A stretch of DNA of 64,000 nucleotides from Saururus chinensis (taxonomy: Eukaryota > Streptophyta > Magnoliopsida > Piperales > Saururaceae): positions 59,539,152 through 59,603,151 of the forward strand of contig CP141140.1 in assembly GCA_035235625.1 (NCBI GenBank), in the 5' to 3' direction. Of this stretch, positions 11,082-63,300 are shown in pieces. The position numbers and the translations under genes are program-made. Within the stretch, counting starts at the first letter, position 1; each line of letters opens with the position of its first letter. Under the pieces are notes generated by a model that searched no databases, had not been told where the DNA came from, and saw only the letters and a list, made by a program, of their open reading frames with translations.

Positions 11082-11334
11082 GATTTGGTCCAATTTCCTC
11101 TGATTCTGCTTGCATGATTCAGGGTTCATACTTACCAACATAATTCCATATTTTTTTTCCCTTTTAAGGCGTACACTTACCTGAACCAGTTTTCATCTTC
11201 TAATGTATGTGCTTTTTTTTTTTCTAATGTTGGTTGTTTTAATAGAAGGTTTCTGAGATCTGACTCATTTGTAGTAGTGCATAATAACCTGATAATGTAC
11301 TGGGATGAAATTCAACTTTGTGGGAAATTTTCAT

Positions 11335-12210
11335 GAGTTGTAATCCCCTGGTGAAGCTTCACCAGGGACGCCTCTGGTGAAGCTTCACCAGCCAACCACG
11401 TCGAAGCTTAAGAAAATGCCGTTTCGGTAACTTTTCATTGTGAGCCCGCATTAAAAGAAAACCAAATTTCTTAAACCGATTCCATCCCGGCTTTTACAGC
11501 CTCCTTTCTGGATAAATATTTTTTTTGCAGACTATCTCATCTGCCCATTTGGTTTGACTTTTATTAAAATATAGTATTTTTTTTTTACATTTTTTAACTT
11601 AATTTATTTTATTTTTTTATTAAAATATTTATTTTAAAAGGTCTTTCTTTTTCCCTGGAGCATTGAAGCATCCGTAAGGAAGACGTGTCCAAATTTATTG
11701 AAAGGTTAAAACTTGTATAATATTATAGTTTGTACTGATTTTAATTTTTTATTATTTTATTTATTTATTTTATAGAGCATTAAACGTAATTGTCAAAATA
11801 TTGAATGCAAGTACCAAATGGTAAAATTATTGGAACAATGAAATAAGATGGGTGACTAAGGTTAGTTTATCCATCACTACTTTATAATTCTCTCTAAGTA
11901 TTATATTTTTATATTATTTATAATAAGTATAATTTTTAATAAATATTAAACCAAATGGCCAGATAGGATAGTTGAAAAGATAGCTCATTAATGGAGGTTG
12001 AAAAAAAAAATTGTACAGAAGGGAGGCTACAAAAACGGAAAAGTACGAAACCGGTTTAAGAAATTAAGTTTTCTTTTAATACGGGCCCCACAATTAAGAA
12101 GTTATGAAATGCCATCTCATCTAATATCACGTGATGAACTTCTAGGTGGTTGGCTGGTGAAGCTTCACCAGAGGCGTCCCTAGTGAAGCTTCACCAGGGG
12201 ATTACAACTC
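11335..12210. mobile_element. Non-autonomous Mutator-like element (MULE-MITE) with 9-bp target duplication
   Basis: The element is 876 bp and opens GAGTTGTAATCCCCTGG, with the inverse at its right end. The terminal inverted repeats match for about 240 bp (to roughly 11575 and 11935) with scattered mismatches. Flanks are the perfect 9-bp direct repeat AATTTTCAT (11326-11334 and 12211-12219), the length typical of Mutator-superfamily insertion. Each arm carries two copies of the palindrome TGGTGAAGCTTCACCA (one copy in the right arm has a single change). The 350-bp centre is AT-rich with no frame, so transposition would need a transposase supplied elsewhere. It sits about 250 bp past the methyltransferase stop codon. 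Confidence 0.93.
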
Positions 12211-12865
12211 AATTTTCATATACTTTTTGTTTTTTCACCATCTTAAAAGTCTTAACAAATTCTTGTGATATTTTTGCACTTCCTGATATACATAAGGCTA
12301 GGGGCGGAGCCAGAAATTTCTAAGAGGGGGCGGTACGAAAAAATGATTAGTGGATGAAGTGAAAAGGTAATTGACTTCCTTCAATATTACCTTTTTCAAA
12401 TGTAGAAGGAGCATGCAACACTTCAAAAGTGGTACATGATTTCAATTTTTTGGGTCCCAAAGATATTTTGGGAGTTTTAAAATTTAATTTGAATCCTTAT
12501 TTGTTGCCGGTGGTGAGTTTTGATACAAATAGGTATGTCTTTGGTACATTATAAGTACAGTTTTCTAATCAGTTTCAACACCTTTGACCATATTACATGG
12601 AGCTCCTAACATAGTACATAAAGGCAACCTCTATATACTATATTATATATCTAACATATTATATAAAAGTTGTATTCACCTCTAAATATTATATTAGGAG
12701 CCCCATATAGCATTTTATGGGCGTTAGTCATGGAGCCAGGTGAGGCCAGAGGCATCCGTAGCAATATCTTTGTTGCAAGAGCTCTAGATTCTTGGTTTTT
12801 TTAACTTCCGTTTTGCCCTTTTAGGGCAACCTTGTAGGTCCAATTTACATCTGTTGGCCTAATAT
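12211..12865. other. Intergenic repeat debris
   Basis: No coding signal. A GGGGCGGAGCCAGAAATTT word at 12301 resembles the end of repeats common in plant genomes. The rest is AT-rich. Confidence 0.35.
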
Positions 12866-14156: not shown

Positions 14157-15035
14157 CACTGAAACCGATGTAGGATATCTTGGACGAGAGGGAAGATGCA
14201 ACACTAGATCTATCCCAACCCTTTCGATGATGATGACGTGAATCCATTCGCAGTAACTGCTTGACATTTCCCTCGAATCTCTTCTTTCCTCCTCTTTTTC
14301 TACACTTCGGATTCCACTCCTCTTACTGCTCTAGTCTGCGTTTCATGCAGAGTTCACAAAATGTGGATGTGTTTGTTCAGTTTTGTACTTTTTTTCAATT
14401 TATGACTCCTTTGTGAGATCTAGATTACTGGCTTTAGTTTTTTTCGTTTATGTGAGTTTGTGAGAGCTTGTAGAATTTTGGAGGTCGGGCTTCGAAATGC
14501 TAGTGACTAAGGCTCTGGGTTTTAGTTGCAAGCACATGCAACACACATGCAACTGTTGACATCCCATTGGATAAGGTGAAGCGAGCAAGCTTTTGTCTAG
14601 GTACAGATAGGGTACCAAGGTGGCATACTTACGTGGTGCCTATTACCAATCATAATGTAACTAGTTTATGCTCTTTTCTATTGACTTTTTAAAAATAGCC
14701 AATATAATAGGAAATATGGTGATATATCACATTGTGATTCGTGTTAAGCATGACACGTTAGTACCTTATTCGTATTTAATATTTTTTCATCTAATTTACA
14801 TATGTGAAGATCATAACTATTTCCTATTAGAAAAAAAAAAAGTGGTTGGCGGAAGCTAAGTACCCAGAGAGGAAAGGAAGGGAAGACACGAGGGTTGATT
14901 GCCTGGTCATAATTCTCTAGTCATTTGGTAAACATAAGCCACATTTTTCATAGCCGAGCCAAGCCATTTTATTAAAAGTGGCTTTTAAAGACTGTATAAC
15001 TAAAATAATTAGACCATCAAATCAAAACAAAGGAA
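14157..15035. other. Intergenic, probably 3' interior of the preceding LTR element plus unique sequence
   Basis: No coding frame of interest. It holds a TC-rich patch at 14270-14330 and AT-rich sequence to the copia insertion point. The last five bases (AGGAA, 15031-15035) are the target duplication of the copia element. Confidence 0.4.
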
Positions 15036-16097
15036 TGTTGGACCACAGTATGGGCTCGGGCCCGGTTTGGTCCAACGGTGTCACGGTCCAGGTGAGCCGG
15101 TATGGGCCACGGGATCTAAAGGTGGTGGGGGCGGTCGCGCCGACCCCACATGTACCTTTGGTACACATAATTCGAGTGGGACCCACATATGGCACACACG
15201 TACACTAGACATACATCTAGGTGTGCATTTACACATTGTGGGGCCCAGATGCGCGAATTAGGTGTTGAGGGTGGAACCCGCGTGATTAGCGAGGGGTTGA
15301 CCCTTTCACGGGCTTGGCATTGTGCAGGGGGTTTAAGCCTCCGTGGGCTCTGTGGGATAGAGCCCGCTCCCGTTGTGTTAGACCCTCTTGTTAACCGGAA
15401 TGATGTTGTCAGCTTGGCCCATTAATTTCAGCCGACTCAAAAGCCCATTAAGAGAGCCAAATTCAAACACCGCCTAAATAAGGAATGGGGGGTTATGAAG
15501 GAAGTGAATTAAAGGAGAATTAAGAGGATTTTATTTCATGCCTTTTATGCTTGGGTTGCCCCACCCCTTTAGATATCATCTTCCCAATTGGTTTGGCACT
15601 CCCTTACATTCTCTTCTCCTCTCCCTTGATCCTCCATTGGTGTAGCCTGCATTTTCTTTGAGAAAAGCTGCTGGCCGCCCTTGCTCTCCCTCCTAAAAGG
15701 TTTGTTTGGCGGGCTGTAAGAGGAAAAGGGATCTCTTCCTAGGCTGAGCTGTGAAGGCTGAAGTAAAGGGCTGATCTTGCTGAATTTCTTCATCAATCCA
15801 AGCACGGTATTGAGAGATCTGCACATAAGAAAGGTAATCCTTAATCTCCTCTTCTTGATCTAGTGTTTGGTGTACGAGATCTGATCAAGGAGGGTGTGCT
15901 AGGGCTGGTTTGGCCCAGTTCAGTTCATCATTGCTCCCATTTTGTTTTATCTCCCTTTGATTATATGTATGTGTTGCATGTTTATTGCTAATTTAATTTA
16001 GTTGTGCATGCTTATGGTGTAGATCTTGTAAAGTTTCAATTTTTATGTGCGCCAACCTCTCCCACCACTGCTTCCGCTGCTGGCCGGCCACTCTACA
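15036..16097 (+). repeat. 5' LTR of the copia element
   Basis: 1062 bp, TG...CA ends, exactly as long as the 3' copy at 21155-22216. The first 230 bp hold most of the differences between the two copies, nearly all C/T or G/A changes. Confidence 0.95.
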
Positions 16098-16098
16098 G

Positions 16099-16110
16099 TG
16101 GTATCGGAGC
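16099..16110 (+). other. Primer-binding site (tRNA-iMet type)
   Basis: TGGTATCGGAGC begins two bases after the LTR end and matches the usual plant copia primer site TGGTATCAGAGC except for one base. Confidence 0.85.
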
Positions 16111-16498
16111 CATTTGGGGAAGGTTTGGTCTCTGATTTGGTTGAAATCCAATCCCTCTTACCTGATCTAGGTTTAGATTGGTAAAATTTGGGATTTTGCC
16201 TAAATCGGTTGATCTACCCGTTCTAATCAAAGGGTGTTTGATATTGAATTAGATTTGAATGTATTATGTATGTTACTGAAGTTTTTTGTTTTCTGGATGC
16301 ACGTGATTAAGTTAAAAATTGAGTTTTTGTGCACGTTTGTTTGCATAAGGGCATAGTGGTAATTTTGCCACATATTATTTTGTGCACATTTTTCTCTGAT
16401 CACGTTTTGGGCTCACAGTCCCTACTGGATAGTATGGATATTTTTAAATTATTTATTATAAAAATAAATTTAATTTAATTAGTTAAGGGTGTAAATTG

Positions 16499-16880
16499 AC
16501 CAAAATAGCCCTAGGGGCATTTTGGATAATTCACACGTGCATTCTGTGTGCTTAATATAGTTCTGTCCAGATCTTTTATTCTATGTGTTGATAACATGCT
16601 TTAGTTGCTGTGATAATTTTTTGGTGTGCCTTTTGAGGGCGAAAAAGACCAAAATAGCCCTAGGGGCATTTTGATAAATATACATCAAAAATTTTTTATG
16701 GACAGAATCTTAATTTCCAGCAGTGTTCAGAATTGTTTTTTTTTTTAATATAACTTTGAAAAGTTTTTGTGATTAATTTTGGTGTGCCCTTAACGGTGGA
16801 AAATACCAAAATAGCCCTAGGGGTATTTTGGTAAATATACACAAAAATTTTTCTGGACAGAATTTTAAAATTCCAGTAGC
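16499..16880 (+). repeat. Three copies of a quasi-palindromic leader repeat, about 150-bp period
   Basis: CCAAAATAGCCCTAGGGGCA (with one T variant) recurs near 16500, 16650 and 16805, followed in two copies by TTTTGGTAAATATACA-like sequence and then GGACAGAAT. The core AAATAGCCCTAGGGGCATTT is a near-palindrome around CCCTAGGG. It lies between the primer site and gag. Confidence 0.8.
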
Positions 16881-17197
16881 CTCTAATTATATTTATTTGT
16901 TGATTTGTTTGCTGGGTTGGGTGTTTTGGGAATTTTAAATTTATAAAACACATAGATACCTAATTAGGGTAACTTCCTTTAAGGGGTTAAGGGGTAGTAG
17001 GGGTTATTTTTGAAAAGTAACATAAACCCTAATTAGGTAATTCTATATAAAAAAACTCAGCATAATATACTCTTTTTTGTCCTAGGCTTATAATTAGATT
17101 AAGAGTTTGTCTAAGCAATTACCTATCTGTTAAGCAGTCATCCTTCCATAAATAGTACTAATTTCCTTTGAACTGCCTGTTTCCTTGTAGATAAACA

Positions 17198-17990
17198 ATG
17201 ACCTCCAAAATGGTAACTGCTGAGTTAGGAAAAACTGAGAAACTTAACGCTGATAATTATTTGGTGTGGAAGAGAAGGATTCATCACATCCTTACTCTTT
17301 CTGATCTTGCTCATGTACTTAAGCAGGTCATTGAGCCACCACCAAAGGGTACATCAGCTGATCAGTATAAATCCCTTAATAAGCTGAGGGATGATGATAA
17401 TAAGGCTAGGTCTACAATTTTTACTTTTATGGAGCCTAAGATATAAAGGCTCTTTGAGAAATATAAGACTGCCAGAGAAATGCTGGATGCAGTGTCTGTG
17501 AAGTATAGGGAGCAGACTGAAGCTAATAAGAAGATACTATACTCTAAATACCAAAATTCCAGGATGAGGGAGGGAGATGATGTGAATGAGCACTTGAGTG
17601 TCATGGCCATCATTGATGATGACCTGGAGACATTGGAGGACCCCATTTTTTAGGGAATCCAAGTGTTAACAGTGTTGAACAGCCTTCCCAAATCTTGGGA
17701 GAGTGTAGTGATCTATCTAAATATGAGTGACTGCCAAGCTTAGGCTTGAGTAAGAAAGGAGAAACTATGTGAAGGCTTCTGGGGGTTCTGTTACTGCCAA
17801 CCTGGTATACAACTCTGGTGGGGGCAAGAAAGGTGGATAGGGGCCTGGTCCCTCTAAGAAAGCTTTAAAGAAGAAGGGGAAGAAGCCTCAGAACAAGGGC
17901 ACTGGAAAAGGGATGACAAACCCAAAGGTGCATTTTTCAAGTGTGGCCAGATGGGTCACTTTAAGGCTAACTGTCCCTAGAAGGATAGCC
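17198..17990 (+). pseudogene. Copia gag (broken)
   Basis: It starts MTSKMVTAELGKTEKLNADN with the LVWKRRIHHIL helix typical of copia Gag, and continues through LYSKYQNSRMREGDDVNEHL. At least five stops interrupt it (17444, 17652 and the 17740-17980 stretch). The zinc knuckle near 17935-17976 reads FFKCGQMGHFKANCP, so the first cysteine of CX2CX4HX4C is lost. Confidence 0.85.
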
Positions 17991-18043
17991 ATTCAAGCAA
18001 AGACAAGGGCAAGAGCGAGGATATCGTTTGTGTTGTCTCTGAA

Positions 18044-21000
18044 GTGATGCTTGCTGACATCAAGGAGAAGACTTGGTGGCTGGATTCAGGAGCTACTGTG
18101 CATGTTTCCCACTCTAGGGGAACTAGGGATAAGATGGTCAATCTGATTCTAGGCCAGAACAAAGTCTTAATGGGGAACAATACGTACTACAAGGTGGAGA
18201 CTATGGGGAGCTACAAGATTTCTCTGAAGAGTGGGTCTAACCTAATCTTGACAGATGTGCTCTTTGCTCTTTCCATCAGAAGCAACCTGATTTTAATCCC
18301 TATTCTGACCAAGAAGGGGTTTGAGGTTAGATTCAAGGGGAGTAAGGCAACTGTGGGTAAGGGTGGGACCGTTTTATTTACTGCTTCTTTAATTAATGGA
18401 TTGTACTGCTTAGATGTAATAAACTATGTTGAATCTAATGAAATAAGCGCTTCTGAGTATATTGTTTTTTCTGTGAATGATACTTTACTTTCGCATATAC
18501 GTGTGTGCCATGTAAATGTAGATAAACTACATCAAATGTCGAGCGCTGGGTTGTTATCTAAAATAATTAAAGACCTACGTGTGTGTGAGGATTGCTTATC
18601 GGGTAAGATGAGCAGATAATCCTTCTAAAAGGGACAAAGGGCAAATGAACTCTTAGGGGTAGTACATTCTGACATCTGTGGGCCCCTGAATGTTCAGACC
18701 CACAGAGGTATGATGTATTTCATTACATTCATTGATGACTATTCAAGATACGGGTACATGTATTTAATAAGCAGGAAGTCTAAAACCTTAGATAAATTAA
18801 AGGAATTTAAAGCTGAAGTAGAGACTCAGTTAGGCAGGAAAGTAAAAATCCTGAGGATTGACAGAGGTAGTGAGTACACCTCTGACCTGTTTAAAGATTT
18901 CTGTACCGATCAGGGAATAGTTTAATAGTACACCTTACCGTACACTCTACAGCAAAATGGAGTGACAGAAAGACGTAATAGGGCGCTTATGGACATGGTA
19001 AGGTCCATGTTAAATCACTCTGAGTTAGGAACTAACTTCTGGGGTGAGGCTTTAGACACCTCCGTGTACATCCTTAATCGTGTACCAACAAACACCTTAT
19101 GAGTTATGGACAGGTCGATGTCCAAACTTAGGGCATCTTAGAGTGTGAGGGTCTAGGGCACACGTAAAGGTACCTAACTAGCATAGGTCAAAGCTAGACC
19201 CCAAGATCATAAAGTGCAACTTTATTTGTTACTGTGATCACTCTAAGGGGTATAGATTTGTGGTTCACCACATGGATAAGATAGTGGGGGTTGTTGAGTC
19301 TAGAGATGCTTATTTATTGGAAGAAGAATTAAACCCTAGAATTCCTAACAAGAAACTTGATTTATTTGAGGTGGTTAAAGAGGTTGGTCCTAGCATTTCC
19401 CTAGAAGAAGTAATTGGATCAGATCAAAACCAAACCGATCCAGAACCTAGGGCATTGAGGGAAAGAAGACCTTCAATTTTATTGAGGGACTTCTATACAA
19501 TGCTAGGGGAGGACAACGTCACGTTAGATGAACCTATTCTAGATGACCTTATTACGCTTGAGTAAGCTTTAAGTCTTCTAGACGCTCAAGAATGGCAGGT
19601 TGCTATTTGGGAAGAGATGGACTCTATCATAAAGAACAAGGTCTGGGAGATAGTGGATCCACATGAAGAGCGAAAGCTCATTGGGTGTAAATGGATCTTC
19701 CAAAAGAAGCTTAAGGCTGATGGGTCTATATATAAATACAAGGCGAAATTAGTGGCCAAGGGGTTCACCCAAGTGTATGGGATAGACTTTAAGGAGACAT
19801 ACTCACCGGTGTCAAGATTTGACTCGATTAGATGTCTCTTAGCATGCGTTGCTTACTTTGATTTAGAGTTGCACAAAATGGATGTAAAGGCTGCCTTCCT
19901 AAATGGAGATTTAGAGGAGGAGATTTACATAGAACCTGAAGGTTTTGTGATTCATGGAGAGTAACACAAGGTGTGCAAGCTTATAAAATCATTGTATGGC
20001 CTAAAACAATCTCCCAGGCAATGGTACTTCATTTTTTACAAGGTGATTAGTGAATATGGGTTCATAATGAACGAGCACGGTCATTGTGTCTATACCTTCT
20101 TGGATGGTGTAAGGCATATGATGTTGTCACTGTATGTAGATGACATACTCTTGATGGGGAATGACCTTAGTATGATAGTCACTTTAAAGGAATGGCTAAA
20201 AACCCAGTTTGAGATGAAAGACATGGGTGAGGCATCATACATCCTCGGGATAAAAATTGACAGAGATCGAAAGGCTAGGAAGCTTAGTATATCTTAAGAG
20301 TCATACATAGAGAGCGTTATTAAATGCTTTAATGTCATTGGTTGGAAAACTATTGAATCCCCTATATACAAGGGTACTGTGTTGTCTAAAAGTATGGCTC
20401 CTCGGACAGAGAAAGACCGATTCCGGATGGAGTCAGTGCCATATGCACAGGCTATTGGCAGCTTGATGTATGCCATGACCTGTACTCGACCTGATCTGAG
20501 TTTTGTGGTAAGCTTGTTAAGCCGTTACCAAGCAGACCCTGGTCTTCAGCACTGGCAAGCGGTGAAGAGGGTAGTTTGGTACCTTTTAGGGCCTAAGAGT
20601 TTAAAACTTACGTATTAGGCGAAAAGTCTCTCATTGGCTGGATATAGTGATTTGGACTATGCGGGGGATCTAGATGACAGGAAATCCACTGCTAGATATG
20701 TCTTCATGTTTGGAGGCGGTGCTATATCGTGGGCAAGCAAGAAATAAAAGAGTGTTTTTAAGTCTACGATGGAAGTTGAGTTTTATGCATGTAGTATTGC
20801 AGCTTCCCAGGCAGTTTGGATTAAGGAATTTTTAGCAAAATTAGGGCTAGAAAACTACACTGATGCTCCTGTCCAGATATATTGCGATAATCTTGCTACA
20901 GTGTCGACACTTAAGAATGGGGAGATCAGTGCCAGGGGTAAGCACATTGAGGTGCATTACTATTACCTCTTCGACATGCTACAGAGATGAAAAGTGATTG

Positions 21001-21060
21001 TGAGTCATCTTCCTACTTCTGAGATATTAGCAGATCCGTTTACTAAAGCCTTAACAACGG
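18044..21060 (+). pseudogene. Copia pol: protease, integrase, reverse transcriptase, RNase H (broken)
   Basis: Domains in order: aspartic protease WWLDSGATVHVSHS (about 18075-18115); integrase zinc region (CHVNVDKLH... CEDCLSGK, 18500-18610); integrase core with HSDICGPL, FITFIDDYSR and NGVTERRNR (18666-18990), the DDE residues in place; reverse transcriptase HKMDVKAAFLNGDLEEEIYI (19870-19935) and YVDDILL (20138-20158); RNase H MEVEFYA and YCDNLATV (20769-20910). Stops fall at 18617, 18923, about 19138, 19183, 19562, 19961, 20295, 20616, about 20745 and 20988. One frameshift near 19090 also breaks the frame. Confidence 0.92.
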
Positions 21061-21144
21061 ATCTATTTTCAAAGCACGCTCATAGTATTGGTCTTTGACA
21101 GGACTAACGCTGGTCGCTGTTGGACTATATGAGCCCTTCACCCA

Positions 21145-21154
21145 TAGTGGGGGA
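21145..21154 (+). other. Polypurine tract
   Basis: AGTGGGGGA-type purine run directly before the 3' LTR, the expected plus-strand priming site. Confidence 0.75.
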
Positions 21155-22216
21155 TGTTGGACCATGGTATGGGCTCGGGCCCGGTTTGGTCCAACGGTGT
21201 CGCGGTCCGGGTGAGCCGGTACGGGCCATGGGGTCTAAGGGTGGTGGGGGCAGTCGCGCCAACCCCACATGTACCTTCGGTATACATAATTCGAGTGGGA
21301 CCTACATATGGCTTACACGTACACTAGACATACATCTAGGTGTGCATTTACACATTGTGGGGCCTAGACGCGCGAATTAGGTGTTGAGGGTGGAACCCGC
21401 GTGATTAGCGAGGGGTTGACCCTTTCACGGGCTTGGCCGTGTGCAGGGGGTTTAAGCCTCCGTGGGCTCTGTGGGATAGAGCCCGCTCCCGTTGTGTTAG
21501 ACCCTCTTGTTAACCGGAATGATGTTGTCAGTTTGGCCCATTAATTTCAGCCGACTCAAAAGCCCATTAAGAGAGCCAAATTCAAACACCGCCTAAATAA
21601 GGAATGGGGGGTTATGAAGGAAGTGAATTAAAGGAGAATTAAGAGGATTTTATTTCATGCCTTTTATGTTTGGGTTGCCCCACCCCTTTAGATATCATCT
21701 TCCCAATTGGTTTGGCACTCCCTTACATTCTCTTCTCCTCTCCCTTGATCCTCCATTTGTGCAACCTGCATTTTCTTTGAGAAAAGCTGTTGGCCGCCCT
21801 TGCTCTCCCTCCTAAAAGGTTTGTTTGGCGGGCTGTAAGAGGAAAAAGGATCTCTTCCTAGGCTGAGCTGTGAAGGCTGAAGTAAAGGGCTGATCTTGAT
21901 GAATTTCTTCATCAATCCTAGCACGGTATTGAGAGATCTGCACATAAGAAAGGTAATCCTTAATCTCCTCTTCTTGATCCAGTGTTTGGTGTATGAGATC
22001 TGATCAAGGAGGGCGTGCTAGGGCTGGTTTGGCCCAGGTCAGTTCATCATTGCTCCCATTTTGTTTTATCTCCCTTTGATTATATGTATGTGTTACATGT
22101 TTATTACTAATTTAATTTAGTTGTGCATGCTTATGGTGTAGATCTTGTAAAGTTTCAATTTTTATGTGTGTCAACCTCTCCCACCACTGTTTCCGCTGCT
22201 GGCGGGCCACTCTACA
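21155..22216 (+). repeat. 3' LTR of the copia element
   Basis: 1062 bp, same ends as the 5' copy, followed by the AGGAA target duplication. Confidence 0.95.
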
Positions 22217-22610: not shown

Positions 22611-25600
22611 CTACAATGCTGGGTTCACCAAAATGTTGGAAGGAATGAGGCGGAACCACTGGGCTAGAGGGTCCTTTTTACCGCCATAACAGGTTTGACC
22701 CTCAAGACACATACATTCCTTGGTGTAGATGGCGGTGGAGGTGTTGGTGTTGGTCTCCAGACACTGCAGCTTCCCTTGGGGGTCCATGGCAGCTATTTGG
22801 TACTTGCCGCTGCCCACCACCATCCACTTGCTGTGTGCATCAGAGCACTGGTCGGACACTGTGACCGGCTGCATCTCCCCGCTCATCCTCAGGCAGAGAT
22901 CTGTGCCCATCAGCTTGATAGGAGCCCCATCTGCCTCGTACGTCCAGGGGCTCCTGCTGAGGCACCCGGCCATCTTAAGGGTCTTCTTCTCCTTGTCGGC
23001 CTGTGCACAGAGGCCGCTCAGTGGGTTGTAGAGCACGTTGTGGGGTGTGCCAGCTAATATTGGGTCTGCAAAAAAAATGCCAGTTCCATTAGTTAATTAC
23101 TATGATTTATATCTATACTTATCTATATTATTATAAATTATGAAAAGCTAGGTTAGCTAGCTAGGTTTATGAAATTTAAGTTACTTAGATTTAGTTAGAA
23201 TAATTAAGGTGATTCACACCTTTCTTTAAATTTATACTCCCTCCCTCCTACCTCCTATATTAATAGCCACACCTATTAATATAGGATGGAGGAAGTATTT
23301 TTTATAAAAAAAATTATTTAATATAAAATATAAGGAATAATATTTATGCCAAAAATATATAATTATGTCATGGCGGGTGCATTTTGTATGTGCTTTTTTT
23401 ACACTTATCCCTCTTTCATATTAATTATATGAATTTAAAAAGACTTTATTGCATCTTGATTGGCCTATTTTACGTTATCATTTTTATAGTAATTAGTGAA
23501 TAAAATAAAAAAAATTAGTAAATGGAGTATAAAGTTTAATAAATTTGTTTAATTAAATATTATTTTTTTGATTTTTTTAAACTTAAATAATTAATATAAA
23601 ACAGAAGGAGTACGATAAAAATGAGCAAAAGAGGGACTTTAACGAGTTCATATAATTACAGAACATTAACAACAACATTTGGTAGATAGATGATCAAACC
23701 TAATTGAAACATTATCATGTAAACGAAAGGGTGGTACTTTGGATGCATAATTACGTACCTTGCACCATGTCAAGGATGAGGCTGTACATCTCCTTGAACC
23801 TGGGGTGCCTGGGGCCATTCCAGGTGGCGTTCATGACTCCATAGAACTCCTCCGTGCCTGTTTGGTTCTCTCTCAAGTAGTAGCCCCCCTGCCATGCCCA
23901 CATGGCGAAGTCGAAGTCCCCCTCCAAGGCATAGAGGAGGAAGCAGGCCAGGAACCTGGCTTCCGCCACCTTGGGTTTCTGGATGTTCACCCCGAACTCG
24001 CCGAGGAAGAAAGGCATATTGAGGTCGGTCGCCACGAAGCCGGTCTTGTCGCGGAAGGTCTTGGTGAGGGTGGGGCAGACGTAATTGGGGTTGTCAGTAC
24101 CCCACATATTCGAGTTGCCGTTGGAGAAGGCGTACCAGTGGGACTCAAACACCAGCTTGTTGCCGATGTCGACCTTGAGGGGGCGGCGGCGGAGGAAGGT
24201 GAGGTCGGTGGCCTAGCCGAGGCCGGAGACGATGACGAGGAGGTTGGGGTTTGCATGGTGGATGGTCTTCACCCCACGGGTCACGTACCTATACCAGTCC
24301 GGCACGTTCTCATGGTCCCCCCGCAGCTCGTTCCTCAGGCTCATCCCCACCACCTGTATCAAATACATAGACAAGCCAATGCATCAGATAAAGAGATAAA
24401 CAGAAGGCACACCGTGGAAGGAACACTAGCTCTACGAGAAGACGATGTGCCAGAAAGTGTTCAGTAAGCTCGTTGTGTGTAGACTAGTACCCTGGACTCA
24501 TGTAGCATGATCAATTTTCATGACCATGGCTTGTGATTAATAATGAGAAGTTATCACATCACCAAGAGATGAGAGAGAGACCTAAGAGCCAGATGTAACA
24601 GTTCTTAAGGTTTCTTCTTCCATATATCTAATGGTCATGCATTGTAGTAATGTAAGAAATTTGTGACAAATTATAATCTTAGTGTAGATTTTGTATGCAT
24701 GCAACATTGTGCATCGTGGATAATCGGCCATCAACCGCTGGTGAAACTTTACCAACGACTCTGGTGATGAAGTTTCACCAGCCAATTTGAATTCTTAAAA
24801 CTACTTCACCAAAGGATTTAAATTTCCAAAATGCGGTACACCACATACTCCAGATTTCCTATTAGAAATGGGCCCATAAAATTTCATCCAGTATGGAGGG
24901 CATTTATATAGTCTGCACTACTAAATTCAAGCACTTAATAAAGTCAAGTCTCTACTTCTGGGGCTTGTAGCAGCATAAATATAGCACATAATTAGGTCAG
25001 GGCCCTTTGATGGTCGGCAAGTATATACAAACTGAATTGATTTTTTTGGTTGAAAATGTATGTAAAACTAAAGAACGAAGTTCATAGGCACCAGTACTGT
25101 AATTAACCTTTATCACCTAATTGCACTGAAAAGCTGCAATATGTGTTTATTCGACCTGGCTTTTCTCGGTACTTCCTTTCTACGTTTATAGTATAGGACA
25201 GGAGCTTATATGAGCTATAAACCACTTTCAAAAATCTAAACCAGTGTTGCATGTGTTCACAGTCATAATACCCTTCAAATGAGACGCTTCAAAATCAGAA
25301 GTACTAATAATAAAATCAGACCCAGTTCAATGGGACTTTACGATGATTATATTTGATTATTGTAAGTAAGATATATAAAGTCTATGGAAAACTTAGTTAT
25401 CTTATAATTAATTTAGGTCGATGATCATTAATTAATATCGGTCCAGAAGTGGAGTTTCAATTTAAAAAACAAATTAATTTAAATTATTAATGTAGGACAA
25501 AAAAGTATAAGTTATCCAAATCCATGAATAGATTGTCTCAAGTTTTACATTAAACTAAACTCAAGAATTTTTAAAATTAATTTTTTATAAAAGTTAGTTT

Positions 25601-26429: not shown

Positions 26430-27429
26430 NNNNNNNNNNNNNNNNNNNNNNNNNNNNNNNNNNNNNNNNNNNNNNNNNNNNNNNNNNNNNNNNNNNNNNN
26501 NNNNNNNNNNNNNNNNNNNNNNNNNNNNNNNNNNNNNNNNNNNNNNNNNNNNNNNNNNNNNNNNNNNNNNNNNNNNNNNNNNNNNNNNNNNNNNNNNNNN
26601 NNNNNNNNNNNNNNNNNNNNNNNNNNNNNNNNNNNNNNNNNNNNNNNNNNNNNNNNNNNNNNNNNNNNNNNNNNNNNNNNNNNNNNNNNNNNNNNNNNNN
26701 NNNNNNNNNNNNNNNNNNNNNNNNNNNNNNNNNNNNNNNNNNNNNNNNNNNNNNNNNNNNNNNNNNNNNNNNNNNNNNNNNNNNNNNNNNNNNNNNNNNN
26801 NNNNNNNNNNNNNNNNNNNNNNNNNNNNNNNNNNNNNNNNNNNNNNNNNNNNNNNNNNNNNNNNNNNNNNNNNNNNNNNNNNNNNNNNNNNNNNNNNNNN
26901 NNNNNNNNNNNNNNNNNNNNNNNNNNNNNNNNNNNNNNNNNNNNNNNNNNNNNNNNNNNNNNNNNNNNNNNNNNNNNNNNNNNNNNNNNNNNNNNNNNNN
27001 NNNNNNNNNNNNNNNNNNNNNNNNNNNNNNNNNNNNNNNNNNNNNNNNNNNNNNNNNNNNNNNNNNNNNNNNNNNNNNNNNNNNNNNNNNNNNNNNNNNN
27101 NNNNNNNNNNNNNNNNNNNNNNNNNNNNNNNNNNNNNNNNNNNNNNNNNNNNNNNNNNNNNNNNNNNNNNNNNNNNNNNNNNNNNNNNNNNNNNNNNNNN
27201 NNNNNNNNNNNNNNNNNNNNNNNNNNNNNNNNNNNNNNNNNNNNNNNNNNNNNNNNNNNNNNNNNNNNNNNNNNNNNNNNNNNNNNNNNNNNNNNNNNNN
27301 NNNNNNNNNNNNNNNNNNNNNNNNNNNNNNNNNNNNNNNNNNNNNNNNNNNNNNNNNNNNNNNNNNNNNNNNNNNNNNNNNNNNNNNNNNNNNNNNNNNN
27401 NNNNNNNNNNNNNNNNNNNNNNNNNNNNN
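26430..27429. other. Assembly gap of exactly 1000 N
   Basis: The round length marks a placeholder of unknown true size. Both borders carry nearly the same sequence: TTGGCAGTGCAAAGAA on the left and TTGGCAGTGCGAGGAA on the right. Confidence 0.98.
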
Positions 27430-55550: not shown

Positions 55551-56107
55551 AATTTGACATTTCTCCATTTAATTTTTTAAAATAAACAAAATTTCCTTCA
55601 TTTTAAAAATTAAATTAAATAAATTTAATTAGAAAAGATGTTTTTCAAAATAAACTAAAATTACTTCATTTTAAACAACCAAATAGACCTATTAATATGG
55701 GTTGCAATGTTGATATTTTTCAATACGACCAAGAAAGCCGTTTTCCTGTACCCAAACGTATGCTTTTCTTTTGGCTGAGCGGTCAAACCGGTGAGTCATT
55801 GGCATCACCACTATTAGTATCGTACATATAGTGTTTATTTTGTCCACATGTCTGAATTGGATAAAACTGAAACTGCCAAGAGCTGAACACGGCTAGATCA
55901 ACCTCTAAAATAGAGTTATCCCGTATCAAAAGATCGGATTAAGCAGGTAGATGGATATCTGCATGACTGGAAAAGGTAATTGGAATTTGGAATATCCTAC
56001 GAGTCCTCCAAACCCAGTCCCCACTGCCTCCACCTATGTGGAGCTGGCATGGCCGGATTTTATAGGCTGCTCTGCTTTTCAAAGTCAAAAGGGATTACTA
56101 ATAAAAA
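55551..56107. other. Intergenic, with MITE-like inverted pieces
   Basis: AT-rich to 55710 with AAAATAAAC(T)AAAATT(T/A)C repeats that resemble Stowaway-like element interiors. Then about 400 bp of mixed sequence with no recognised gene. The last seven bases (ATAAAAA) are the direct repeat flanking the foldback element. Confidence 0.4.
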
Positions 56108-57202
56108 GGGAAATTTATTTAAATAATATTTTTTAAAAAAATATTTACTAATTTAGACCACTTTGAGAAATATTTCCCAAAGTGGTGTTGCTTTTTGCCA
56201 CGCAGGCGCCAGCCAAGCAGCTGGCACCTGCATGGCTTTTTTTAAAATTTCTTTTTTGATTTCATCTTTTAGGACTTTTAAAGGACGAAATCAGAAATCA
56301 GCATTAATTTCGTCCTTTAGAAGGACGAAATCAGTACTCTCCCCTCCCCTCTCTCCTCTTCACTCACTCTCTCCTCTCTCTCTTCACTCTCTCTCTCTCC
56401 ACTCTCTCTCTTCAGTCTCTCTCTCCACTCTCTCTCCTCTCTCTCTCCACTCTCTCTCTCCTCTCTCTCTCCACTCTCTCTCTCCCTCTCTTCACTCTCT
56501 CTCTTCTCTCTCTCCTCTCTTCTCTCTCTCTTCACTCTCTCTCCTCTTTCTTTCTACAATCTCTCTTTTCTATCTCTCTATTCTCTTTCTCTCTCTTCAC
56601 TCTCTCACTCCACTCTCTCACTCCACTCTCTCTCCTCTTTCTCTCTCTATTCATTCTCTTAAAGAGGAGAGAGAAGGGAAAGAGGAGAGAGAAGAGAGAG
56701 TGAATAGAGAGAAAGTGGAGAGAGAAGAGAAAGAGGAGAGGAGAGGGAAAGAGGAGAGAAGAAAGAGAGAGAAGAGAGAGTGAAGAGAGAGAGAGTGAAG
56801 AGAGTGAGTGAAGAGAGAGAGTGGAGAGAGAGAGAGTGAATAGAGAGAGAAGAGAGAGAAAGTGAAGAAAGAGAGAGTGGAGAGAGAGAGTGAAGAGAGA
56901 GAGGAGAGAGAGAGTGAGTAAAGAGGAGAGAGAAGGGAGGAGAGGGGAGGGGAGAAGAGAGGGGAGAGAGGGGAGGGGAGAGTACTGATTTCGTCCTTTT
57001 AAAAGACGAAATCAGTACACAATACTGATTTCGTCCTTCTAAAGGACAAAATCAAAAAATTCTTTTAAAAAAAACCACGCAAGCACTAGCTGCGTGGCTG
57101 GCGCCTGCGTGGCAAAAAACAACACCACTTTAAAAAATATTTTCTAAAGTGATCTAAAAAGGTAAATATTTTTTTAAAAAATATTATTTAAATAAATTTC
57201 CC
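56108..57202. mobile_element. 1095-bp foldback element: one giant hairpin of hairpins
   Basis: It opens GGGAAATTTATTTAAATAAT and closes with the exact inverse. The outer 235 bp of each arm match at about 85-90% by eye. The inner 300 bp are a CT-rich tract (56335-56655) and its GA-rich complement (56660-56985), so the two halves pair to the midpoint at 56655 with almost no loop. Each arm contains smaller palindromes: ACCACTTT...AAAGTGGT, CCACGCAGGCGCCAGC...GCTGGC, and GATTTCGTCC...GGACGAAATC. The 7-bp direct repeat ATAAAAA flanks both sides (56101-56107, 57203-57209), consistent with insertion. No protein is encoded. Confidence 0.9.
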
Positions 57203-57380
57203 ATAAAAACGGAAGATGAAACGGTGGAGGACCATAGCAGCATTCTTGGAATTTACTAACGTGGAACGTGTAGAGAATTTTTTATGGAATGAGTGTGTCA
57301 TTTACAATGAATTACAAGATGGCGTTGCATTTCCATTCTGTAAACGATATCAATGAGAAAAAAATAAATACCAAATGAAG

Positions 57381-60300
57381 CTATTTGTACAGAACACGTT
57401 TCGGGAATGCCCATAGTTTTGGGAATTGCTGCTCTTTCCATTGAGCCTCATCTGAATCGCTATCACTATCCGAAGATGACATAACAAGGGAGTCACCTAA
57501 CAGATATCCCACCACCTGATGATACAAATAGTGAATGCTTATTTCACGAACATACAAAGAATTTACCTACAGTTTATGTAGGCTTAAATTAAAAGAGATA
57601 CTAAGCATGCCAGTCCCCCAATTTCCAAGGCATTTGACATCAAACTGTTAAAATGTTTTTAGAAAGACTGTTAAAAAAGTTACCATTCATATATTCCTCG
57701 AAAGACATACTCAAGATATTCATGACAGTCAATGAAAATAGAGATTAGTCATTTGTACCAGTAGTAGGTATCACAACAACTTCAAGGTATATTTCCACCA
57801 AATTCAATTTTCGGACCAGACATTTAATGTTCATGTAATACGTAACTATGATCCAAAAATCAAGTAGGATAATTTTATTTCAGTTGAGTGCCACGTGAAA
57901 GAAATCAGCGTTCAGAGACTTCCTAAAGAAACTGCACTAATGCTAAAAATATGCAATTTTAACAATTTTTGGGGACATTAATACCAAGTCAACAAACAAG
58001 CTCAAGAAACAGAACTGCAGAATATGAGACATCATTTACCTGATAAGGTGACACAGGCTTAATTTCTCGTTTCTTGTTCTTCACATTTGTATTATGGTGT
58101 GATTTTGCACATGCTGCGTCATCAAGCCAGATGATCGATTTGCATTGCACACAGTATCCCCTATTAGAAATAGACTTCCACAAAGGATTTCCTGAAATAG
58201 ATCATCAATTTAGTGAATTTCCACAAATATCTACTAGGGGTTATGCAGCTGTAGTCATTATCCTCATCACTACCTCTATGACATTAGTCATCGCCAAGGA
58301 AATATTAAGAGGATGCAAAACCATTTACCTTATAATAACTTGACCCATCACCTAAAGTTCTACACAGCCCATCAGATCTAGGTTTGATTCATACCTATGA
58401 ATCCCCCCAAAATCTGTTTCCGGGGATTAGTAAAAAGTGTCATAAATTAAAAATTGAAGTCGCCAGGTTAATATCTGAATTTTCCTCCCAGATCCAAAAC
58501 AGAAGAGAATTAGTGAATTTGTTTCCCACCTTTTTGGGGTGATGTTACAAATGCTTAGAATCTACGTTTTCACAATAGAAAGTTGGACAAAAGGGGGTTA
58601 TGGATTTGATGAAGGTCGGGATAATATAAGGGAGATTAGTGGAGGATAATTGGGTGAAGGGGGAGAAATTATAGATGAATTTGGGAAAAGAGCAAGGGAT
58701 GGCTAGAGTAAAGAGAATTAGACTTAAATCTGAAACCTCATTCACTAACTGAAAAATAGGAGAGCTAAGTAGGCCTAGTCAACTAACTTAACAGCCTACT
58801 ACTTAACTTCTAATAGAAATTACAAATTACTCCCTAACAAGTAAGAATTTACTACTGACTCCCTACTCATAATAGCATAAGCAAATATCCAAGATAGGGA
58901 AAAAAAGATGGCCAGGCCAGCCCAATAGAAACATTGGACGCTGGTACTTAGCACTGGTCATAACCGGTGTGGACTTTCTGTTAAATTAAATATCTCACAC
59001 TTAACTCCCGACCCAATTTTAATTTAACTTACTAACCACCTTAATTGAATCCTTGCCCAAAACGGAATATTTTTTCCCTCTAAGAATAAAAAATGACACA
59101 TTGCATTACCTCCACCTAAGAAACTAATATAAAAAAGTTAATTGCAAAAAGAAACTCCTAAAATATATCACCCACTGAGACACCCATTTTGCATTTCCAC
59201 TTCGTCCAATTAGCAAATAGACAATAACTATTAGGTTATAATATGAAAATTTACAAAAGTCACTTCTCCATTCTAAAGAACATGAAGGACGCACCAATAT
59301 ATTTCCTTTTGAATGCTTCTTTCCATCCAAGGTTGAATGATGTAGCCTCGCATTCATTTACTTTACATAAGGTTGCATCCACCAGCTCTCCATTCGCTTG
59401 ACCAATAGGTTCATTTTTGTCAAGAATTTCTGAATTGCCAAAATATTGTATATATTGTGACTGCCACAGCATGTTGTCACTAGCTGTTAAGCTCCATGAC
59501 CTTATCACAAATCACAATTGAATTAGTTATATAGGAGAGAGAGGTGTTAAAGGCCACAGTATCTAGTCTGAAGCATTAAATAGCCAACAAATAGAGCACA
59601 GTACACTTAAGTGCATTGAGCAAGTAGTCCAAAAAATAATAACTTATATGATGCAGTGAACATATATGACTAGCAATTCTATCACTTGAAAGTGAAAGTT
59701 GAAGCTTAAATATAGGGCTCCTTCCACAAGTTGTGCTAGGGTATCTCAATTTTCAATAAAATTGTCAAGAGATTAATCAGCTTCATCTCCACCCTAGTAA
59801 ACATAAGATTTCCCATTTGATTAATTAAGGAGAAGATAGATAAAATAAATTTTTTCCCAGGTGTAGATATGGCTTGTGGAGGTGGCCACACCGGACTCAG
59901 GACAGTAACCATTTTTCATGTTCAGAACCAGCACCTACCCCCAAGAGTCTAAGACATGGCGATAGTATATTCGATCTAGTTTGAACCTATAATATAGCAA
60001 GTCCATTGATTTTCCATGATGCACAGATAAAACTTGATGGTGTTTTCAATACATTTAATTTAAGGTAGATAGCAATTAGACCCAATCCCCTACACAATTG
60101 GTTACAAATGCTTTTTGACAAGCATTTGCTGCAATTGGTCGTGTTCTCCTGCATTATGAAAACCTGCACATAACCCCCTGGTACAATATCTTTTTTCTCA
60201 TATTCCTCTTTTACCCCTCTCCTTTCTCCTTCCTTGTTTTTTACCATGGCCCCCATCTTCTCTCACCTTCCTAGGTTTCTTCTTCCTCACATGAACCAAA

Positions 60301-63300
60301 CTTCCCTTCTATTGTGGTCAACATACTAAACTTGATTTTGAGTTGTCTAACGTTATTGGTGCAGTATTACTCAAGTATGCACGTCCTTGCCCCATCACAT
60401 GATTCATCACCTGAGATGAGCATGGTTAATAATGATGCCCGGGCGAGGTTGATAATGAAGCCTATAACTGTGCCACACTTGACAAAACTAAGACAAGGCA
60501 TTTAAGACCACTATCCCACCAACTTACACTAACCATGCTTAAGGTTGTGGCTCATAGTAATTATAGGTAGAGCAGGGTGGTGCCTGTGAAAACCAAAAAG
60601 AATATAAGGGATGTCCAGTTTGTGTACGGATGAAGAGACTTGGGAAGGTGAGTGAAGGTGGAGCCCACAATCAAATAACAAAGAAAGGAGAAAAGAGAGG
60701 GGTAAATGAGGGATTTGAGATAAAAGAGACTGTACCAGGGCGCTTTGTGCAAATTTTAATAATACAGGGGGTGTAAGTGCTATTTACCCTTTAATTAATA
60801 ATGCTTTCTAGTTGCTTTTAAAAATATCAATAGTTTTTAAGGGACCAAGTGTATTAGAGCACAGAGCAGATACGTAATATTCAGTTGCACATGGCAGTGA
60901 GACACTAAGTACACAAATATAGGAAGCTGAAAGGATTGCTTAATTTCACATAAAGAAAGTAAAAGATCTCGACAGCTTAATTCACTATTTGAAGAATGGA
61001 CTTTGCGGATGATAAGCTTAAAAATCTAAAGAGTATAAATTCCATGAAAGGTATTCAGGAATGGAAAAATATCTTTGGAAAAATATCTTAAAGATCAGAG
61101 TCCTAGGATTGTGTTGGACTAGTATCAAGTAACGTAATCTGATAGGATTTGTAAAATAATATATTCATCAAATATTACATAGTGATGCAAATCACAGTAC
61201 TACTTCTGTAAATTCAGAGGTCAACAACTCTTGTGTGTCATGGATCAATTCCAACTTCTTTTAGTTTATTCCCATTCTAATTTGCTAAGATACTTATAAA
61301 TGTAGGTTTCCTTCTTGGGGTTCCTTTTTATAAGTTGTACAAAAATTCTGTAGATAGAAATGTTTACGATGTATTCTCAGTCTACATTCTTTCATTTGTT
61401 TCTTCCCACTTCATCTCTCTTCTTGTTTTTGGTTTTAAACTTTGCAAAGGGAAAGTGCTGAGCTTAGTACCTATGACATCTCTAACACTAAAAAGATGTT
61501 TCCTTCTATAATGCTTCCACATTGTTCTACTCCTGTTGTTCTCTTTAACACTTGAAAATATGATAATTCTTCATCTTATATTGTTCGACTCTATTTCAGG
61601 TGTATTTTACAAATTTTTTTTTCATTTGGTGCATTTTACAATTATTTAGCAGAATGCATATGTCATACGAAAAAAAATGATTCTAATAGACATAGATGCA
61701 GGATCAAGTAATATTCCTTTATCCAAGGTAATCTTGACAAAAATATCGTTAAACAGTCGATAATCTATATTTTGCATAGCCAGGTAATATCAGGCAATTA
61801 ATCAGAATGCACATGAGATATCTGTCACAGCAAATACATTTGTGGTAGCATAAGCTGAAAATTTACCAGCAAACTAAACTAGCAGCCACCAAAGAACGCA
61901 TATCCAAGAAACTAAATATATGGCCAAGGACATCTTGAGGCAATGTTGCTGAACCTGGAGAAAGAACATAATGTACAGAAAATTGTCAAGAGAGCTATAT
62001 ATAATAGAACTTTATTTTAATATCAGTTTTGGAAAAAGGTCAGAGAACTCTATGTCCATATCGGTCTAGGAAAATCATCACATTGATAGAACAACTGGAA
62101 CGCAGATAACAGTCAGCAATTTTAAGCAATTTTTATTTTTCAAATCATAAGCATTCCCAGTTATGAAGGCAACTCAAGACAACAATTTCTGTGATGCAAG
62201 AAAATAGCATTGATTTGGGGCAGATTTTAAGACAAGCAATATTTTGAACATGTTGGCAAAACCAACTGCAATATAAATCATGTAAGTTATTTTGGAACCA
62301 ATTTTTATATCAAGGGATAACTCCTACTAAGACCTAGTGGTCATCTATATTTACCAATAGGTCCACAACAAAAATTATATTGTACATAATAGTATAAATT
62401 TACTATTGTTCGTTTGCAACAATAGTAAAATATGGATAACCACTGGGTCTTAGTGAGAGACTGAGTCATATAGCTTCTCATTTACTATAGCTTAGGCCTT
62501 TTATGGTAGATATGTGTGCACAAACTCCTTTTTTCTATATTTTTAGAGATAGGGAATTACTTTATGATCGGTCCGGGGGTTCTAGGAGGTCCTTGGGATG
62601 ACTTACTGGTCACAATTGGCTTCACAAGGGAATTCATCACAAGCGAACAATAGTAAAATTAATGTGGACCTATTGGTAAATTAATTGGGCTATTTGTCCT
62701 TACTGAGAAGAACCCCTATAATCACAGAAATCCCAGTCTTCAGCTTTAGTAGCCATAAAAACCTAGATAAAATCAAGGCAAGACAAAAACAATTCACCAA
62801 AGAATATAACTGAACCTTGACCAAGAGTTTGAGAAATATATTTACTTTTTCCTGAAAATCCAAGGTGTAAATAAATGTTAATGTTGTTACAAAAAAGCAA
62901 ACTGACATGGCATGTACCAAATAGAATTTCAAACAAATTTTGTTTACCTATCTATCTTAATGACTTTATGTCAGATTTACTGGTCACTTTTTCAAAAAGG
63001 TAAGCCTCATCTAAGTCTATGAAAAGGTAATCTAGGTAATAAGGATCTCTCTGTACCATCATAGAGATGAACTAAATCAATACAGGTACTCAGGCTTCAA
63101 CTTGACTAGAGAAAACTGTACTATTCTAAGAATTTCCATACAAACTTAAACCAAAAAGGTAGGTACAATTTCACCTTCTTCGTCTTTTAAGGGTTTACAG
63201 CGCCTTTTGTGCGCAATGATCGCATTTTTGAACTCTGTCACAGCCAATGTTTTTTTCTGCTTTGGGAGGGTCGCTTCTGCAGCATGGAGGAGGAGATTTG

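Follow-up and report, generated by a model that had tools for sequence, protein, structure and literature searches.

Among the systems compared, the nearest in kind to the locus analysed here is Tm1, the Mutator/Foldback family of root-knot nematodes (PMC3169594); as outlined in that account, its members have composite foldback termini, make mostly 9-bp duplications and include both MITE-like and transposase-coding forms, and a GA-rich motif occurs in most of them except the MITE-like ones. In plants, the nearest foldback MITE of the Mutator-like (MULE) type found with a coding partner is MuTAnT from Medicago truncatula (PMC4486113), described as having a putative autonomous relative, AT-rich targets and 9-bp duplications. 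As for larger elements, Abermu (PMC9168764) is a large plant MULE with terminal inverted repeats (TIRs) of 138-145 bp, and MULEs with tandem terminal repeats have been reported as well (PMC3310237).

The element considered here occupies positions 56108-57202 (1,095 bp) of a stretch of 64,000 nucleotides from Saururus chinensis, the whole of which was analysed and is called the window. With a probability of about 0.93, it is a non-autonomous MULE foldback MITE whose ends are the TIRs of a ~6.9-kb coding MULE family of the same genome; this derivation is favoured because coding Mutator-like elements have its termini and its sub-palindromes. The observations that carry it are the termini shared with MULEs, AT-rich target-site duplications (TSDs) of 9 bp, an empty site, hundreds of copies and a common polar centre. 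Since its ends are the same as those of larger transposase-coding Mutator-like elements, the kind is known; the family itself may be undescribed, as literature searches, judged by titles and the opening lines of abstracts, brought up no plant family of such architecture, and three sequence strings of the family were absent from the literature searched.

Regarding its anatomy, the left outer arm (56108-56336, + strand) is a TIR with nested palindromes that starts with GGGAAATTTATTTAAATAATA and resembles the coding-MULE termini. It contains sub-palindrome 1 (56158-56185, CCACTTTGAGAAATATTTCCCAAAGTGG), which is perfect in the arm consensus and also present in the coding-MULE termini, a GC-rich sub-hairpin 2 (56197-56236) with a stem of 17 bp in the arm consensus, and two units of sub-palindrome 3 (56258-56332, GATTTCGTCC ... 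GGACGAAATC). Next comes the pyrimidine tract (~56337-56660, + strand), a degenerate CT array with a weak unit of ~13 bp, CTCTCTCTCTTCA, whose end is the polar centre motif (56649-56660, + strand; ATTCATTCTCTT, directly followed by AAAGAGGAGAG); the purine tract (~56661-56982, + strand) is the inverted counterpart of the pyrimidine array and includes a 13-bp row, GAGAGAGAGTGAA, and the right outer arm (56983-57202, − strand), again a TIR, ends with AAATAAATTTCCC. A CT-rich inner arm facing a GA-rich one had been proposed by the first-pass annotation of this DNA, and these two tracts bear it out. In the left tract the 13-bp unit scored highest (259 vs 248 for plain CT), and in the right tract units of 15, 2 and 13 bp scored alike (211, 208 and 205, respectively); the higher-order unit of these degenerate CT/GA arrays is weak, at 11-15 bp.

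The same annotation had called the foldback near-perfect. The foldback stands, and the adjective does not: 41 terminal bases are identical, the outer 235 bp have 82% identity with the opposite arm (E = 5e-64), and self-complementarity across the whole element is 78%, with numerous indels. Its palindromic structure is far beyond chance, yet short of near-perfect. The presence of further hairpins within an arm was upheld, since the left 235 bp form strong sub-hairpins (z −8.3; 0 of 200 shuffles folded equally well), as was the recurrence of the sub-palindrome 3 strings, each found twice per arm (≤2 mismatches). Folding the whole element as RNA, a check that had been proposed, gave a single long hairpin of −695 kcal/mol, a value obtained on the native sequence alone. 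A Pfam scan of the six long frames of the element found no transposase domain (one weak low-complexity match fell below the cut-off), and nothing in the window matched Rfam at gathering thresholds.

The genome searched comprises 516 Mb in 11 sequences. The outer arm gave 83 matches from 40 scored of 3,025 candidates, the 21-bp terminus (≤1 mismatch) occurs 1,422 times (reversed-pattern control, 1), and the 28-bp polar centre (≤3 mismatches) 227 times (reversed-pattern control, 0); the foldback element is one of hundreds of non-coding copies. From 35 places, namely 34 fetched loci (numbered with an L) and the window, 31 pairs could be bounded as elements of 677-1,520 bp, these being the best matches to the window's arm, paired within 2.5 kb. 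Seven of the 35 places yielded no pair: in L010, L027 and L034 one terminus begins inside the query, although each of these loci has the two tracts; L019, L038, L041 and L042 were widened to L043, L044, L045 and L046, respectively. The partner termini of L019, L038 and L041 lie 3.5, 1.9 and 2.3 kb away, no partner terminus was found across the ~9 kb fetched for L042/L046, and L043 has both tracts, interrupted by other sequence. The remaining 28 places gave the 31 pairs, as three loci (L020, L032 and L040) hold two elements each; two alternative pairings in L015 were left out. It should be noted that the 31 copies are not 31 independent insertions, because L020, L032, L040, L024 and L039 have common insertion sites inside one larger repeat.

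As expected of MITEs, the copies are short, numerous and devoid of a transposase gene, and they have TIRs and TSDs; the typical MITE is smaller than 677-1,520 bp. They also qualify as FB-type elements: their inverted repeats are very long and contain tandem repeats, and hardly any unique sequence, if any, lies between the arms.

As for the tracts, 31/31 paired copies have one of pyrimidines in their left half and one of purines in their right half, each of 100-536 bases. This count is biased because the copies were picked as best arm matches paired within 2.5 kb. The two tracts adjoin or lie ≤15 bp apart in 30 of these copies, the exception being L022; with the unpaired places counted, both tracts occur in 32 of 35, none long being found in L044, L045 and L046. 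A systematic sample of termini (every fifth of 100 listed, n = 20; exact matches on three chromosomes) had tracts in 12 cases and lacked them in 8: they were found at 8 of 15 newly fetched termini and at four of five fetched previously (L053, L033, L058 and L032 with tracts, L049 without). Among the newly fetched termini, tracts accompany all eight whose partner lies within ~1.1 kb (one purine tract being only 39 bases long) and none of the seven without a near partner. The centre has a polarity: most copies have one arm that ends in ATTCATTCTCTT, opposite an arm that ends in CCCTTCTCTCTCTCCTCTTT or something very similar; a second type of centre has the same motif plus a spacer of 12-15 bases.

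Some members of the family depart from this plan. L054 is a 402-bp foldback without tracts. L022 has the centre motif twice (C1:47165873 and 47166165), 292 bp apart, which suggests an internal duplication through the centre. An element of 1.67 kb at L049:868-2539 is bounded by family termini and has a TSD matching at 9/9 positions; its GC-richer-looking interior may be captured sequence, making it a putative Pack-MULE. L015 has two tandem family termini at one end (418-722) and a third forward terminus at 1585, and it is a MULE with multiple termini.

The family makes TSDs of 9 bp, the length usual for MULEs: at least 8 of 9 positions match in 28 of the 31 copies (9/9 in 23), the misses being L015, L016 (7/9) and the window copy, and in later sets the same threshold was reached in 14/18 and 7/8. 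The 20 distinct TSDs are AT-rich and mostly not (TA)n; they have 96.7% A+T vs 71.6% in the flanks, and the final base is A in 19/20. The window copy has the nonamer TAATAAAAA on the left (56099-56107), the last 7 bp of which, ATAAAAA, recur on the right (57203-57209). The first-pass annotation had noted this repeat and taken 7 bp as the length of the duplication, proposing a genome search with the outer 235 bp for copies flanked in the same way; the flanking repeat is there, and flanked copies do exist elsewhere, with duplications of 9 bp and not 7. The window's 7-bp repeat is thus best read as a 9-bp duplication that probably lost 2 bp on the right, because the TSDs of the family are 9 bp long and L055 carries TAATAAAAA intact on both sides. 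An element of another superfamily with 7-bp TSDs was considered and rejected, the family TSD being 9 bp.

An empty paralogous site was found in L039. Against the two flanks of element 1 in L040 placed end to end, it is short of just one copy of the 9-bp TATATATTA, and this 970-bp element is absent to the base; the site documents insertion only. The surrounding sequence is itself repeated: L040 (~111-2917) is a discrete repeat of ~2.8 kb with two foldback elements ~169 bp apart, which also occurs in L032, L039, L051, L052, L053 and L057, L039 holding one foldback only, and L020 matches it beyond its ends. These ends read TAAGGGTGCTAAC...GTTAGCAGCCTTA, and in L040 they are flanked by the 8-bp ATTGCACC; because of the ends and of these flanks, the repeat has the appearance of a hAT-type element with two MITEs as passengers.

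Regarding the coding relatives, one element among the terminus pairs listed, L047 (5,383 bp), has both family termini, a TSD matching at 9/9 positions and a MULE domain (E 4.7e-16), and it has no CT/GA tract; a piece of its transposase has at least 150 matches in the genome, itself included, with at least 83% identity (scored from 3,035 candidates). Four of the eight best transposase matches were fetched (L059-L062), and in 4/4 a family terminus lies upstream of the transposase. Three of these loci were extended (L063-L065), revealing inverted termini at both ends, 6,969, 6,927 and 6,857 bp apart, with TSDs of 8/9, 9/9 and none clear (for the copy C4, at the bounds used), respectively. The domain scan covered one of the three extended elements, the first, and found a frame of 548 aa in which MULE and SWIM domains occur and, after it, a frame with a plant mobile domain. 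The latter, seen in L059:2783-8501 with its extension L063, is downstream of the MULE+SWIM transposase and in the same direction; as summarised in a review, the plant mobile domain is restricted to angiosperms, and transposable-element proteins that contain it may counter silencing (PMC8616336). Its presence in the coding relatives indicates a flowering plant as the host. In the three extended coding MULEs the longest pyrimidine or purine runs are 14-35 bases, with no CT/GA tract. Long TIRs are therefore common to the MITE and to MULE-transposase-coding elements (L047; L059-L062 with L063-L065), and the ~6.9-kb coding MULEs have the same termini and sub-palindromes as the foldback element; from this comparison, the nested palindromes are features of the parental terminus, and the CT/GA arrays are derived in the foldback.

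The origin of the palindrome admits more than one explanation. From the equal lengths of the two halves, the first-pass annotation had concluded that the tracts were created or kept in register with the arms, for instance by inverted duplication of one half or by hairpin-templated repair, so that each locus would make or maintain its own palindrome. The window copy taken by itself agrees with this, as its tracts measure 324 and 322 bases and the bases at their outer edges are identical (GGACGAAATCAGTACTCTCCCCTCCCCTCTCTC); it is, however, the most symmetric among 31 copies, in which the two tracts of one copy differ in length by 30% on average. Within a copy, tract lengths correlate weakly (Spearman 0.37, p 0.04, 31 copies; 0.44, p 0.02, in the 27 of known polarity), which leaves room for some coupling or common ancestry of lengths. 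The arms speak against formation copy by copy: divergence is 15.7% within copies (31 pairs) vs 16.0% between copies (1,860 pairs), and only 3 of 62 arms have their own partner as the nearest relative. In the tracts, the own pyrimidine and purine arms pair with 92.2% identity and a score of 0.548 per base, and those of other copies with 92.6% and 0.526; this marginally better score is in favour of local duplication, but a median of 13 of 30 foreign R arms beat the own one, which ranks first in 2/31, so any advantage of own-arm pairing is at most slight. The rank and correlation tests are descriptive, because the copies are related. The polarity test, made on 27 copies (four pairs without a clear centre polarity were omitted), gave consensuses for the A and B arms that agree over ~180 bp, except for one T run and the edge of the alignment; labelling the arms in this way reveals no structure (259 of 500 permutations gave a value as large). 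Because own arms are not closest to each other, palindrome formation in each copy is disfavoured, and the local mechanism appears distinctly unlikely. A false inverted join of one arm during assembly would account for the palindromic shape, and for that alone; given arms that are 18% different, a duplication at both junctions and 227 centres across the genome, such an artefact is very unlikely, its chance being close to negligible.

The sub-hairpins raise the question of whether the arms have been conserved for their structure, as a cruciform or an RNA hairpin, by selection acting after insertion. The sub-palindromes are present in both the MITE and the coding-MULE termini, palindrome 1 has diverged by 5.5% per site vs an arm average of 10.1%, and its compensated pairs number 10 vs a shuffle mean of 4.9. 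Across the 62 arms, however, those 10 pairs remain within the shuffle range (maximum 11), hairpin 2 has 15 compensated pairs vs 14.2 expected and palindrome 3 has 7 vs 10.6, and the stems decay much like unconstrained sequence. Because compensation in the stems is without clear excess, no structural selection after insertion was detected, and this explanation is considered unlikely.

In the reading preferred here, of a MULE-derived foldback MITE, the palindrome therefore most likely has a single origin, in a founder, from which transposition copied it; the pattern of arm divergence fits a single founder, already palindromic, that would have been amplified and whose copies would have decayed independently. 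A one-time inverted joining in this founder is likely: two inverted termini of ~235 bp would have been joined head-on via facing pyrimidine and purine arrays. The MULE transposase would recognise the termini and move the MITE in trans, multiplying the founder, and the array lengths may have changed later, arm by arm, via slippage or unequal exchange. The arms are ~10% from their consensus; plant substitution rates are ~6.5e-9 to 1.3e-8 per site per year, at which this divergence would correspond to roughly 8-16 million years.

A cellular function of the element is not evident. Small-RNA silencing may draw on its long hairpin, and elements of this kind are candidate sources of small RNAs and candidate spreaders of GA-repeat sites. 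More speculative, and improbable, is the idea that the facing CT/GA arrays made the founder successful, the purine arrays being candidate GAGA-factor (BPC) sites or nucleosome-excluding, triplex-forming DNA; if it were true, hundreds of insertions would have scattered long GA-repeat regulatory modules through one plant genome, each of which could also give a long double-stranded RNA. The family is of interest on other grounds too. It indicates how a long and odd palindrome most likely comes about, with one origin in a founder transposon and copying thereafter. It also connects a family of foldback MITEs with a likely coding parent that resides in the same genome, and its hundreds of copies allow the change in array length and the decay of hairpins to be followed arm by arm.

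The window contains other features that can be mentioned. A second foldback (11335-12210, GAGTTGTAATCCCCTGGTGAAGC...), with arms 77% alike over 212 bp, is flanked at 11326-11334 and 12211-12219 by AATTTTCAT, a duplication of 9 bp without mismatch, and by this duplication appears MULE-like. A diverged inverted repeat is located at 60148-60768 (ACCCCCTGGTACA...TGTACCAGGG), its arms being ~77% alike over 168 bp. At 15032-22216 there is a Copia-type LTR retrotransposon, with direct repeats of 1,066 bp that are 96.3% identical and with RVT_2 and other pol matches between them; positions 22611-23096 match weakly a ricin-type lectin domain, and 26430-27429 is a run of N of 1,000 bases.

In comparison with the known systems, and with reference to what their published descriptions state, Abermu resembles the coding parent in ends and target, by description rather than by sequence: both have GGG...CCC termini, 9-bp duplications, TA- or AT-rich targets and a very high copy number (PMC9168764). 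Abermu has a reverse ORF, whereas in the scanned coding relative the ORF with the plant mobile domain runs in the direction of the transposase; this domain is not mentioned in the main text of the Abermu paper (PMC9168764). MULEs with tandem terminal repeats are like L015, with its two tandem termini, and unlike the window copy (PMC3310237). Like the present family, MuTAnT is a foldback MULE MITE of a plant, with 9-bp duplications, targets rich in AT and a relative that is putatively autonomous, but MuTAnT is mostly 200-300 bp long, whereas the present family is 677-1,520 bp and has CT/GA arrays of its own; moreover, MuTAnT inserts mostly into (TA)n microsatellites, and the present family into AT-rich 9-mers that mostly are not TA arrays, with no such microsatellite habit among its 20 distinct TSDs (PMC4486113). 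Tm1 is the closest match in kind: composite foldback termini, mostly 9-bp duplications and the coexistence of MITE-like and transposase-coding members are common to both, and its tandem unit of ~14 bp also varies in number between the ends of one element (PMC3169594). Within one Tm1 element the two ends are on average 93% identical, against 84% for the outer arms here, and Tm1 has no clear target preference, whereas the TSDs here are AT-rich (PMC3169594). Finally, unlike Tm1, the family has a plant as its host and symmetric termini (GGG...CCC), and its array consists of polypyrimidine in one arm and polypurine in the opposite one, with arms that meet at a fixed polar centre (PMC3169594).
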